Of a stretch of DNA of 5,546 bases, positions 173 to 4,286 are shown one piece after another. The stretch comes from Thermodesulfobacteriota bacterium (GTDB taxonomy: Bacteria > Desulfobacterota > DSM-4660 > Desulfatiglandales > HGW-15), in NCBI GenBank assembly GCA_025454125.1, contig JALOPA010000187.1, forward strand, positions 1-5,546. Direction: 5' to 3'. How positions within the stretch are numbered: the first letter of the stretch is position 1; each line of letters begins with the position of its first letter. The notes under the pieces were generated by a model. That model was given only the letters and a program-made list of their open reading frames with translations. It ran no database searches and was not told the DNA's origin. A program made the translations under genes and the position numbers.

Positions 173-351
173 TCAATAGTGCCTAAAGTGCCTGAAGTGA
201 ACTAAAGTGTCTAAAGTTGAAAACCTAAAACCATAAACACGAAAGCACGAAAGTAGAAAAGCACGAAAGAAGAGGGGAGTTCTATTGAAAACAGGTCATT
301 CCTTTTCGTGTCTTCACCCTTTCGTGCTTTCGTGGTTGTCCCTTTTCGCAT
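173..351. repeat. Junction repeat copy A (short-core inverted repeat between dppD and dppF)
   Basis: An imperfect inverted repeat fills the whole dppD-dppF junction. The side next to dppF carries about four degenerate nonamers related to CCTAAAGTG (about 179-218). Then comes the left arm of CACGAAAG octamers (238-253 and 262-269), a core of about 30 bases with TATTGAAAAC, and the right arm (302-334). The 16 bases at 238-253 are the exact reverse complement of 319-334. The right arm overlaps the 3' end of dppD, whose stop codon lies inside it (314-316). The right end lacks nonamers, but ATGCGAAAAG at 342-351 still aligns with the matching part of copy B. Copies B, C and D in this window share the same parts. 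In the transcript it would form a stem-loop. Confidence 0.9.
182..184 (-). promoter_or_regulatory. Candidate ribosome binding site for dppF inside the repeat terminus
   Basis: On the minus strand the repeat end reads TTTAGGCACTATTGA directly before the dppF ATG. The AGG is nine bases from the start and no better purine-rich site is present. The same TTTAGGCACT string precedes the dppD and dppB starts. The match to anti-Shine-Dalgarno is only partial, so this is a weak site at best. Confidence 0.4.
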
Positions 352-1312
352 ATAGGACGGGACAGCGCGATAAATGGTCATTGCCGTAATCGCAAAGCCG
401 AGGGAATTCCTGTCGACAGGTCTCTAGAGCGTATCTGCATCTTGGATGAAAAGGGCACCCCCTCGGCTTGAAAGCCGGATCCGGCACGGTTCTCGGAATG
501 CTGTGCAAGGTCCCGCCCCTCTTCGATCGGTGCGGAAGAGACGCCAGCAACCCTTGCGTGTAGGGATGTTGGGCACCTTTGAAAATCGCCTCTCTTTCTC
601 CCTGCTCAACGATCACCCCCGCGTACATGACGTAAATTCGATCCGCAATGTTGGACACCACATTGAGGTCGTGGGTGATGTAAAGAATCGACATGCCGCG
701 CCTCTTCTGGAGTTTTGCGAAGAGGTTCAGAATCTGCTTCTGAATCGTCACGTCCAGGGCCGTCGTCGGTTCATCGGCAATGACAAGATCCGGATTGCAC
801 CCCAAAGCCATGGCGATCATGACTCGTTGTCTTTGTCCTCCGCTCAACTGATGAGGGTAGTCCTTGATCCGTTCTTCCGGCGATGGAATGCCGACGTCTC
901 TCAGAAGCTGAAGACATCTTTCTTGAAGTTCCGATTCCCCAATGGTCTCGTGCACGAGGATGGCTTCCTTGATCTGATCGCCTATTGTGAAGACGGGATT
1001 CAGGGACGTCATGGGTTCCTGGAAAACCATGGCAATCCGGCTTCCCCGGATGTTCTGCATCTCCTCTTCCCCGAGATCCAGGAGATTCTTTCCCTGAAAG
1101 AGAATCCTGCCGCCGGCGATTTCTCCGGGTGGTCGGGGTATGAGACCGAGAATCGTCAAGGCAGAGACGGTCTTGCCGCAACCCGATTCCCCAACGAGGC
1201 AGACCGTCTCTCCCTTGCGGATGTCATAGCTCACCCCATCAAGGGCTCGAGCCACGGTCTCATCGCCCCGGAAGTAAACCTTCAGATATTGAACGGATAA
1301 CAACTCTTCCAT
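314..1312 (-). CDS. dppD: Oligopeptide/dipeptide ABC transporter ATP-binding protein, DppD/OppD type
   Basis: This cytoplasmic ATPase of the importer is complete at 332 residues, a normal length for DppD/OppD. The nucleotide-binding domain shows Walker A GESGCGKT (41-48), a Q-loop glutamine (98), signature LSGGQRQR (156-163), Walker B LVIADE (176-181) and the H-loop histidine (214). The C-terminal oligopeptide-ATPase extension starts near HPYTQGLL (249-256) and carries cysteines 286, 292, 299, 307 and 317. In structurally studied DppD proteins, cysteines of this region hold a [4Fe-4S] cluster; that it does so here is inference. The ATG at 1310-1312 has an AGG five bases upstream, supplied by repeat copy B. 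The last seven or so residues (NHESTKG) are encoded by the right arm of repeat copy A, so the natural C-terminus was probably altered when the repeat arrived. The symbol is family-level; Opp, Dpp and related importers cannot be told apart here. Confidence 0.96.
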   Translation of the reverse strand: MEELLSVQYLKVYFRGDETVARALDGVSYDIRKGETVCLVGESGCGKTVSALTILGLIPRPPGEIAGGRILFQGKNLLDLGEEEMQNIRGSRIAMVFQEPMTSLNPVFTIGDQIKEAILVHETIGESELQERCLQLLRDVGIPSPEERIKDYPHQLSGGQRQRVMIAMALGCNPDLVIADEPTTALDVTIQKQILNLFAKLQKRRGMSILYITHDLNVVSNIADRIYVMYAGVIVEQGEREAIFKGAQHPYTQGLLASLPHRSKRGGTLHSIPRTVPDPAFKPRGCPFHPRCRYALETCRQEFPRLCDYGNDHLSRCPVLYAKRDNHESTKG

Positions 1313-1317
1313 GAGTG

Positions 1318-1320
1318 CCT
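1318..1320 (-). promoter_or_regulatory. Candidate ribosome binding site for dppD inside the repeat terminus
   Basis: The minus strand reads TTTTAGGCACTC immediately before the dppD ATG, which places AGG five bases from the start. The site is the outermost nonamer of repeat copy B. It is the best spaced of the three repeat-derived candidates, although its match to anti-Shine-Dalgarno is short. Confidence 0.45.
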
Positions 1321-1405
1321 AAAATGCCTAAAGTGCCCAAAATGAAAAAGCAAAAACTTCAACACGAAAACACGAAAAAAAGAAAGCACGAAAGAAGAGA
1401 GGGGT

Positions 1406-3072: not shown

Positions 3073-3089
3073 AAGGCCCACAGCAAAGG

Positions 3090-3229
3090 TCAAAACACAA
3101 CCACGAAAGCACGAAAGAGGGAAAGCACGAAAGAGGAGAGGGCTTCTTTTGACAATAGCTCACCCCTTTTCGTGCTTTCCCTCTTTCGTGTTTTCGTGGT
3201 TCTCTCTTTATGCATTTTAGGCATTTCTT
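3090..3229. repeat. Junction repeat copy C (short-core, near-perfect 35-bp stem between dppB and dppC)
   Basis: The arms at 3099-3133 and 3166-3201 are inverted repeats. They pair along about 35 positions with one single-base bulge and one mismatch, leaving a loop of about 32 bases containing TTGACAATAG. The right end carries one good nonamer (CCTAAAATG on the minus strand) and begins five bases after the dppB stop. The left end lacks the nonamers present in A, B and D, so this copy looks truncated on the dppC side. As RNA it would form the strongest stem in the window, between the two permease cistrons. Confidence 0.92.
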
Positions 3230-4189
3230 CTACAGTCTTATCCTCGGATCCACGACCAGATACAGAACGTCGGAAATGAACGTCCCTATGAGCACCAGCA
3301 CAGCCGAGATGAAGTTGACCGTGAGGATAATAGGATAATCTCTCGCCAGAATGGCTTCGTAAGCCATTCTTCCCAGGCCGGGCCAGGAAAAGATGGATTC
3401 GATGATGACGGATCCACCGATCAATCCCGGCAGGATAAGCCCGAACATAGTGACAAAAGGCAGGAGGGCGTTGCGAAGGGCATGTTTGTAGTGAACCTGC
3501 TCTGCAGGGAGGCCCTTGGCCTTGGCCGTTCTCACATAGTCCTGACCCTCCACCTCCAGCATCTGGCCGCGCACATAACGGGTGAGCACGGCAATGCCGC
3601 CCACGGCGCCCAGTACGGACGGCAGGAGCAAATGCCAGATCCGGTCCATGACCACACGAACCGGGGATGCATCTCCAAGGCCGAAGGTTTCCATGCCGAT
3701 GACTGGGACTTGAAACTGATTCACTACGAGAATGATGAGAATGTAAGCAAAAAAGAACCCGGGAATCGAAATGAGAAGGTAGGAGAGAAAGGTCGTAGAC
3801 CGGTCGTAAAGGCCTCCCCTATGAATGGCTGCCCGGATCCCAATGGGAAAGGAAAGGGTCCATGTGAGGATGGTGCCGACAATGAAAAGGGGCAGACTGT
3901 TCAGAAACCGTTCCCCGATTTTTGCCAGCACAGGCTGGTTGTCTTTCCAGGACACGGTTCTGCCGGTGAAAAGATCTCTGTGATAGTAGAGATACTGAAC
4001 GTGAAGAGGCTTGTCGAGGTGAAAGGCCTTGCGGAACCGCTCCACGAGTTCAGGGGTGAAGCGAGGGTTGAGAGGGTCTACCTGGCTCGGTTTGCCCGGC
4101 GCAAGATACACGATGAGAAAAGACACGACGGAGACGAAGAACAAAGTGACAATCTTCTGAATGATGCTTCTGCCGATGAAAGAAAGCAT
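3230..4189 (-). CDS. dppB: Oligopeptide/dipeptide ABC transporter permease, DppB/OppB type
   Basis: This inner-membrane channel subunit has 319 residues, the normal family length. It starts with the typical IGRSIIQKIVTLFFVSVVSFLIVYLAPG first membrane segment (about 11-30), followed by a periplasmic domain. The predicted membrane segments come next, at about 97-120, 135-157, 186-205, 247-270 and 288-312. The EAA loop (about 214-244) reads EGQDYVRTAKAKGLPAEQ...RNALLP and would dock to the ATPases. The end, DVLYLVVDPRIRL, is a standard DppB C-terminus, so this protein was not altered by the flanking repeats. The ATG at 4187-4189 is the only sensible start, because it places the first hydrophobic segment correctly. 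An AGG eight bases upstream comes from half-repeat D. The gene follows the binding protein after 340 bases of repeats and precedes dppC after 157 bases filled mostly by repeat C. Confidence 0.96.
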   Translation of the reverse strand: MLSFIGRSIIQKIVTLFFVSVVSFLIVYLAPGKPSQVDPLNPRFTPELVERFRKAFHLDKPLHVQYLYYHRDLFTGRTVSWKDNQPVLAKIGERFLNSLPLFIVGTILTWTLSFPIGIRAAIHRGGLYDRSTTFLSYLLISIPGFFFAYILIILVVNQFQVPVIGMETFGLGDASPVRVVMDRIWHLLLPSVLGAVGGIAVLTRYVRGQMLEVEGQDYVRTAKAKGLPAEQVHYKHALRNALLPFVTMFGLILPGLIGGSVIIESIFSWPGLGRMAYEAILARDYPIILTVNFISAVLVLIGTFISDVLYLVVDPRIRL

Positions 4190-4286
4190 AAGAAGTGCCT
4201 AAAGTTGAAAAGCAAAAGCCAACCACGAAAACACGAAACAATAGAAACACGAAAAAAGCAAAGTGAGAAGAAGTGCCTAAAGTTGA
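4190..4286. repeat. Junction repeat half-copy D upstream of dppB
   Basis: This copy has only one arm of the family. Reading on the plus strand, AAGAAGTGCCTAAAGTTGA (4190-4208) is followed by AAAAGC...CAACCACGAAAACACGAAA, the order seen at the left ends of copies A and B. Instead of a core and inverted arm, the same 19 bases return in direct orientation at 4268-4286. A half-copy flanked by an exact 19-base direct repeat could result from recombination or from nested insertion. It ends directly at the dppB start codon. Confidence 0.85.
4198..4200 (-). promoter_or_regulatory. Candidate ribosome binding site for dppB inside the repeat terminus
   Basis: The minus strand reads CTTTAGGCACTTCTT before the dppB ATG, with AGG eight bases from the start. 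It belongs to the terminal nonamer of half-copy D. The match to a consensus site is weak, but no other candidate is present. Confidence 0.4.

Follow-up and report, generated by a model that had tools for sequence, protein, structure and literature searches.

The window analysed here is a stretch of 5,546 nucleotides (nt) of a Thermodesulfobacteriota bacterium (GenBank assembly GCA_025454125.1, contig JALOPA010000187.1, positions 1 to 5,546). Its minus strand carries the operon of an oligopeptide-type ATP-binding cassette (ABC) transporter, in the order solute-binding protein (SBP)-OppB-OppC-[GxxExxY]-OppD-OppF, and sequence built of CACGAAAG units is present at all four junctions of this operon (copies A to D). 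At the OppC/OppD junction, copy B consists of two inverted CACGAAAG arms that frame an intact gene of the GxxExxY family (1406..1813, minus strand, 135 codons, ATG at 1813; PF13366 and TIGR04256), a member of the PD-(D/E)XK superfamily. Read in the sense of the operon, the upstream arm (1836..1920) contains TAAAATGCC-type units followed by CACGAAAG units, and the downstream arm lies at 1313..1398. A preliminary description of the window had regarded the inside of this copy as the core of a repeat; it is a complete gene.

Copies A (173..345) and C (3090..3229) are gene-less palindromes. In the orientation of the operon both match the 3' end of copy B over the last GxxExxY codons, the spacer and the arm. 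Having kept the arm and a sequence resembling the gene end, they look like relatives of the gene-bearing element that have undergone an internal deletion. Copy C is predicted to form a very stable hairpin (-71.8 kcal/mol, z -11) and copy A a weaker one (z -3.8). Copy D (4190..4286) has three CACGAAA units in a single orientation, flanked by CCTAAAGTT words directly repeated at 4198 and 4276, and it folds little better than shuffled sequence (z -1.6; 12 of 200 shuffles were as good). The earlier view that the same element occupies every junction was therefore correct for the CACGAAAG-unit sequence, but copy D does not have the inverted arm. In the whole window, CACGAAA/TTTCGTG words occur 22 times against a mean of 0.93 and a maximum of 5 in 1000 shuffles, one of them (4736) falling within the binding-protein gene, and words of the CCTAAARTG/CCTAAAGTT type occur 7 times (shuffle mean 0.087, maximum 2). 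The best tandem periods of the arms are 9 and 8. The tight start of two copies after stop codons was confirmed: five bases separate the stops at 1921-1923 and 3230-3232 from the first AATGCC unit of copies B and C, respectively. Copy A does not end at 313 as had been proposed. Its mirrored arm extends into the oppD frame (TTTCGTG at 320 and 328), and oppD ends in ...NHESTKG, which is translated repeat; hence not every copy respects the reading frames.

The protein encoded by copy B matches PF13366 with an E value of 1.5e-41 (141.8 bits, cut-off 22) and TIGR04256 with 148.8 bits (cut-off 35). Residues G39, E42, Y45, D81, E91, K93, Q105 and Y109 are invariant across 45 sequences, and they make up the GxxExxY signature, a catalytic-type D...ExK site and a QxxxY motif. 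The QxxxY motif marks nucleases of the RecB/Cas4 type. The AlphaFold2 model (mean predicted local distance difference test score 92) is closest to Cas4 structures (4ic1 and 4r5q), followed by MGME1 and phage-type exonucleases, all with modest template modelling scores (for 4ic1, E 4.1e-4 and a score normalized to the query of 0.51-0.56). D81, E91 and K93 are invariant on this predicted fold, and the nearest Protein Data Bank matches are Cas4, which place the protein in the PD-(D/E)XK superfamily. A sequence search for a solved relative found none. Identity with a known defence system was considered and rejected, the matches being only weak ones to Cas4 (Cas4b, E 0.0034). The protein is under purifying selection, as dN/dS had a median of 0.075 and a maximum of 0.21 in 24 pairs of related sequences, some of them copies from the same genome. 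Judged from the model and its conserved site, the protein is probably a nuclease.

We observed that most of the 30 PF13366 genes of relatives seemingly lie between inverted tandem arrays, the units of which differ. To score the arms, the 300-nt flanks of each gene were aligned locally, with a threshold of 14. In the discovery set, this score was reached by 33/48 GxxExxY genes and by 24/30 genes of the four-helix-bundle 23S rRNA intervening sequence protein (IVP), compared to 15/418 other genes; the GxxExxY rows were reduced from 62 places to 52 distinct ones, 48 of them with usable flanks. The best tandem period of the arms was 8, 9 or 10 in 31/33 GxxExxY cases and 7 in 17/24 IVP cases. For the hold-out set, the prediction was fixed before the flanks were examined but after the new GxxExxY loci had been chosen, and the IVP loci were drawn afterwards (29 GxxExxY rows reduced to 28, 30 IVP rows to 28). 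Arms were present in 20/28 GxxExxY, 25/28 IVP and 5/47 control genes, with periods of 8-10 in 20/20 GxxExxY cases and 7 in 20/25 IVP cases. The dependence of the unit period on the gene (p 9e-9 in the discovery set, 2e-8 in the hold-out set) has to be read with the fact that some rows share ancestry, so that the p values overstate independence. The exceptions among the IVP genes are the remaining 5/25 hold-out arms, with periods of 8-9, and the TAAAGTG elements described below, which carry IVP genes with units of about 9-10 nt as judged by eye. Sampling took the best-scoring matches per genome, and three genomes contributed another 20 GxxExxY regions, so that weak subfamilies are under-sampled.

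A set of plasmids from other phyla, comprising 13 of 30 listed IVP records (44 found) and 5 of 8 GxxExxY records, gave a similar picture. Arms were found around 12/13 IVP genes, 10 of these 12 having period 7, and among the cyanobacterial IVP genes 11/12 had arms; 3/5 GxxExxY genes had arms, with a period of 8-10. Two of the plasmid loci (L337 and L339) appear to represent a single site. We also noted IVP genes with heptamer arms within the CRISPR clusters of the cyanobacterial plasmids L330, L336 and L338 (cas6|IVP|cas4 twice and cas10|IVP|cmr3), and IVP genes near cas genes may be mere insertions of this sort. In a Sphingomonas megaplasmid (L346:910-1338), a GxxExxY gene with short CGCGAAGG-type arms lies between fabD and fabG.

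The sequence of the unit is also linked to the gene across genomes. On a tree of 52 GxxExxY proteins (53 rows before reduction), 13 changes of arm-unit class suffice, compared to 35.2 with shuffled classes (0/200 shuffles as low). Eight CACGAAA elements from eight sources, the window included, form one supported clade (99/91), and six CACAGAC elements form another, whereas the CACGAAG and CxCAAAG classes do not form clades. A protein at least 72% identical to that of the window in its best stretch was present in 7/59 genomes, all seven of which have the repeat, and in 0/26 repeat-free genomes (p 0.013); this count excludes two short fragments, in G017 and G021.

The transporter genes around the copies, all on the minus strand, are as follows. 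The gene of the extracellular solute-binding protein (4530..5546; PF00496, E 6.3e-47) has its 5' part beyond the window. It is followed by the OppB-type permease gene (3230..4189; PF00528 and PF19300), the OppC-type permease gene (1921..3075; PF00528 and PF12911), the start codon of which is uncertain (~3075), the OppD-type ATPase gene (314..1312; PF00005 and PF08352), whose final codons are the repeat sequence of copy A, and a second ATPase gene of the OppF type (2..172), an open reading frame of which the window holds only the start and which continues beyond it. The SBP/OppB spacer has further repeats apart from copy D. A palindrome with 28-nt arms of the GTCATTCCCGCGAAAGCGGGAATCCAG type (4320-4390, 89% complementary) represents another repeat family stacked at this junction, and similar sequence occurs in the equivalent spacer of L036. 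Two heptamer-like tandem arrays, of the ACTCGTT/ACTTGTT and ACCACTG/ACCACGG types (4425-4517), resemble the kind that accompanies IVP genes elsewhere. A search of the window against Rfam gave no match.

We compared this operon with its orthologues, retaining 80 loci from an OppB scan, mostly from Desulfobacterales or Deltaproteobacteria; the OppF-type reading frame (2-172) also served as a query against these operons. Many of the orthologous junctions have no element and are often a few bases long, and the filled ones differ in repeat family. Among the measurable junctions, the window included, spacers of at least 80 nt were found at 26/76 SBP-B, 13/57 B-C, 26/53 C-D and 19/50 D-F junctions. 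The comparison did not bear out the proposal of a single repeat family, since some junctions have CACGAAA but no TAAAGTG units (L005, L009, L028 and L040) and others have TAAAGTG but no CACGAAA units (e.g. L011, L025 and L035). Two families are therefore superposed in the window, and the outer CCTAAARTG nonamers, which had been assigned to the same element, belong to the second one. CACGAAAG units together with a GxxExxY gene are present in the window, L005, L028 and L040, and the insertion in the latter three, which are neighbours in the OppB tree, is perhaps one old event. TAAAGTG units enclose 23S-IVP genes of the four-helix-bundle type (PF05635) in L001 (two cases), L011, L022, L025 and L050; in L011 there is also a GxxExxY gene, with AGGAT units. 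As L025 has the TAAAGTG family at 4/4 junctions, the heavy repeat load of the window operon is not unique.

Filled and empty states of the same site were seen in several comparisons. A copy is present in L009 at a junction at which only 4 nt separate the genes in the related L007. At another junction, compared across a single genus, two spacers measure 29 and 33 nt (L384 and L396), and those of other species are filled with arrays of CACGAAAG, TTGACGA, CTCAGAGAT, GAACATC or CCGAAAT. Heptamer arrays are also among the junction families of the orthologous operons. For a comparison of the edges, close pairs were chosen from the OppB tree (L055/L070, L018/L019 and L053/L057), and one G009 junction was compared within its genus. 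Presence and absence were seen in all of these, with the filled and empty sites strongly diverged. Two observations at OppC/OppD junctions stand apart. In L055 and L070, heptamers of the TGACTAA type reach the OppD start, where ATGACTAATGAC serves both as repeat and as the initial codons; this gives the impression that start codons are places at which arrays land or from which they grow. In L019 (10088-10618), the gene of a Y1 (IS200-like) transposase lies amid other repeat units and is a third type of gene at these junctions.

We scanned the genomes of relatives for the window family. CACGAAARCACGAAA matches were present in 25/49 relative genomes, up to 60 times, while the reversed pattern was matched no more than 6 times per strand and genome, and mostly not at all. 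In one genus the pattern was found in 18/22 genomes, with counts from 0 to 82. A sharply bounded unit of 177 nt, taken from G009, is repeated at many places across the genus, some copies having an insert at one internal point. From this unit and the genome counts, it follows that the copies belong to a dispersed family. In two copies within one genome (L223/L224), similarity is confined to the element (449 nt at 92.7%). Gene-less derivatives occur here as well: the short G009 copies L147 and L152, read by eye, retain coding sequence like the GxxExxY N-terminus (MGKLHFK in L132). The G009 copies L154, L157, L158 and L167 share an extra short palindromic insert in the arm (like CTTTTCGCCTTGAGAAGAGGC), possibly a nested element.

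Placement was analysed in 80 regions around sites of four genomes (G001, G008, G009 and G038) of the 25 with the pattern. None of 97 blocks lay inside a called gene, though 79% of the sequence is coding, and 6/97 overlapped a called gene end by more than 20 nt; gene calling relied on a simple finder based on hexamers, which could call one insertion-split gene as two and so miss such cases. Junctions with a block were co-directional in 65, convergent in 11 and divergent in 7 cases, and those without a block in 191, 24 and 31 cases. The preliminary description had suggested a genome scan as a check. The copies proved to be widespread and not a local duplication, but they show no overall preference for co-directional junctions (65/83 against 191/246, p = 1). 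G009 alone has such a preference (31/32 against 98/123, p = 0.017), which was looked for and not found in G001, G008 and G038. Per base, divergent spacers are under-used (7/83 blocks against 31% of spacer bases, p 1e-6). The short G009 copies at co-directional junctions have the same orientation in 7 cases and the reverse in 13, and 11 were not assignable. The carried genes lie in same-strand trios in 61/66 GxxExxY (p 2e-5) and 45/51 IVP cases (p 0.003), more often than other genes (265/387); edge cases (15/81 GxxExxY and 9/60 IVP) are left out of these counts. Co-orientation was considered as a proof of transcript targeting and rejected (61:1 for GxxExxY and 45:0 for IVP against 265:16 for other genes; p 0.33 and 0.14, not significant). 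Only the excess of same-strand trios stands.

We consider it probable that the junction sequences are copies or remnants of dispersed palindromic elements made of tandem units, and that the GxxExxY nuclease acts on its own arrays. The gene-bearing form, represented by copy B, has the gene of a GxxExxY protein, a probable PD-(D/E)XK nuclease, between inverted CACGAAAG arrays; copies A and C would be gene-less deletion derivatives and copy D a single arm, overlaid by units of the TAAAGTG family, whose gene-bearing form carries the four-helix-bundle 23S-IVP protein. The nuclease might recognise the unit arrays as folded single strand or as cruciform and cut or resect them, and repair could then copy the element elsewhere, aiding its copying or movement. 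Gene-bearing copies would be read from host transcripts, and same-strand trios would therefore be favoured. Copies would be found at junctions because insertions inside genes were lost, not because operon junctions were sought, and the hairpins may affect the mRNA as a side effect.

Several observations weigh against this reading. Neither movement nor a target duplication was observed, nor any binding or cutting, and in the close comparisons of filled and empty junctions named above the insertion edges were unreadable and no duplication could be read. Of the GxxExxY genes, 15/48 (e.g. L226 and L140) and in the hold-out set 8/28 are below the arm score, which 5/47 hold-out control genes also reach. 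The arm-unit classes were defined after the arms had been seen, and related copies are non-independent. Moreover, 26/33 repeat-bearing genomes are without a full protein of the matching clade; this is expected if gene-less copies persist, and gaps in draft genomes may add to it.

Insertion targeted at cistron junctions, as had been proposed, would mean that a machinery recognises stop or start contexts, or transcripts, and lands copies between co-transcribed genes. The start of an element often coincides with a stop codon or follows it by a few bases (L005, L028, L040, L050 and the window), and the enrichment of same-strand trios and the preference in G009 are in its favour. However, in ancestral junctions of only a few bases every insertion that is tolerated has to begin near a stop codon, and the junction classes show no overall preference, 8/33 in G001 being convergent and 5/33 divergent. 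Short copies occur in both orientations, and three of the 12 cyanobacterial plasmid IVP genes (L331, L332 and L340) oppose both neighbours. Together with the absence of blocks from called genes, the two orientations fit insertion with subsequent loss of the copies that hit genes better than they fit aim; the placement looks like survival, and we regard targeting as improbable. A selected RNA role, in which junction hairpins process, protect or space the cistrons and the carried gene is incidental, we consider unlikely but somewhat less remote. It would agree with the folding of copies C and A, with the under-use of divergent spacers, as expected if spacers are transcribed, and with the report that RNase III cleaves a comparable hairpin of an intervening sequence (IVS) in vitro (PMC4990558). 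Yet many orthologous junctions are element-free and the occupied ones differ in family, copy D folds poorly, and the aligned G009 copies are near-invariant in their units and partly mismatched (GTACGAAA against GATTGAAA), giving no compensatory support. Such a role would also leave the link of unit and gene unexplained. The same link speaks against passive arrays arisen by local slippage or recombination, or serving as regulator sites, with the GxxExxY and IVP genes as passengers. Gene-less arrays are indeed common at junctions, and paired tandem octamers and heptamers of Geobacter metallireducens are annotated as binding sites of global regulators (PMC2700814). But arms are rare beside other genes, the unit period depends on the gene in both sets, the unit sequence tracks the protein tree across genomes, and the 177-nt unit is dispersed with sharp ends, which makes this explanation quite improbable.

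Beyond the window, we can envisage, with a little less than even confidence, a broad unrecognised class of minimal mobile elements. In this class two unrelated proteins, the Cas4-like GxxExxY nuclease and the 23S-IVP bundle, would partner palindromic arrays and set the unit length (8-10 against mostly 7 nt), with the unit sequence being inherited along with the protein, and the rRNA IVS would be one special landing site. If this is true, the intergenic heptamer arrays that have long lacked an explanation in cyanobacteria and other bacteria would be what is left of IVP elements after loss of the gene. Genes of both kinds, GxxExxY and four-helix-bundle IVP, are very common; at least 7974 of 7999 candidates scored were matches to the window protein, and IVP matches reach up to 50 in one genome. 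For junction repeats of such kind, these data caution against operon regulation as the default reading.

Among known systems, the predicted fold and the D, ExK and QxxxY residues liken the window protein to Cas4/RecB-type nucleases. A four-cysteine Fe-S cluster is a feature of Cas4. Unlike Cas4, the window protein has about 135 residues and one cysteine, its sequence match is weak, and no cas genes lie alongside in the window. The short copies A and C keep the ends of the gene-bearing copy B in the manner of miniature inverted-repeat transposable elements (MITEs), which are non-autonomous derivatives; unlike in MITEs, a known transposase is absent. The filled and empty junctions were too diverged for a target duplication to be read.

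RAYT, a Y1/HUH transposase, is the partner of repetitive extragenic palindromic (REP) repeats. In the present elements, a PD-(D/E)XK nuclease or a four-helix bundle takes the place of the Y1 transposase; only PF13366 was found in the gene of copy B, with no match to a Y1/HUH transposase there, though a Y1 transposase gene does appear at one orthologous junction (L019). The likeness to REP and REPIN sequences lies in dispersed extragenic palindromes, the gene-less copies of which exceed the gene-bearing partner (PMC3116915, PMC3733652). The REP itself is described as a palindrome of 20-40 nt with a GTAG or CGTC tag (PMC3733652).

The IVS of 23S rRNA is likewise small and palindromic, has inverted repeats at its ends and holds a single small gene, and the TAAAGTG family carries the IVS-type gene family, PF05635. 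The IVS with its S23/IVP gene has been termed a selfish element, and remnants of transposition are one hypothesis for its origin (PMC4990558). Unlike the IVS, the window copies lie between ABC transporter genes and not in rRNA, copy B carries GxxExxY, and the arms are tandem short units; PF05635 was seen only in the TAAAGTG elements of relatives, copy B carrying PF13366.

The closing comparison is with heptamer arrays of the short tandemly repeated repetitive (STRR) type and the TAACTGA and GGGAATC types, which are also short tandem spacer units, often in inverted pairs. One Xanthomonas genome has 70 cases of inverted pairs and 186 patterns (PMC4692102), and TAACTGA arrays lie mostly just upstream of starts (PMC4679880). 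Unlike these heptamer arrays, the window unit has 8-9 nt, the 7-nt units in our data going mainly with IVP genes. Heptamer arrays have been interpreted as G-quadruplexes (PMC4692102), as regulator sites (PMC2700814) and as translational signals (PMC4679880). The main texts of PMC4692102 and PMC4679880 contain no S23 or 23S terms. Among the titles and abstract beginnings listed in literature searches, none joins GxxExxY or IVP genes to arrays, and no paper combining 'PDDEXK_3' with 'repeat' was found, with subscription journals poorly covered; a passage that names GxxExxY deals with a reverse-transcriptase pipeline. To our knowledge, the combination of gene and inverted array is apparently new. 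One of these sources (PMC4679880) asks whether a repeat-binding protein is itself a mobile element and urges its identification; with unit length and unit sequence both tied to the gene, candidate partners can be named and this question becomes testable.

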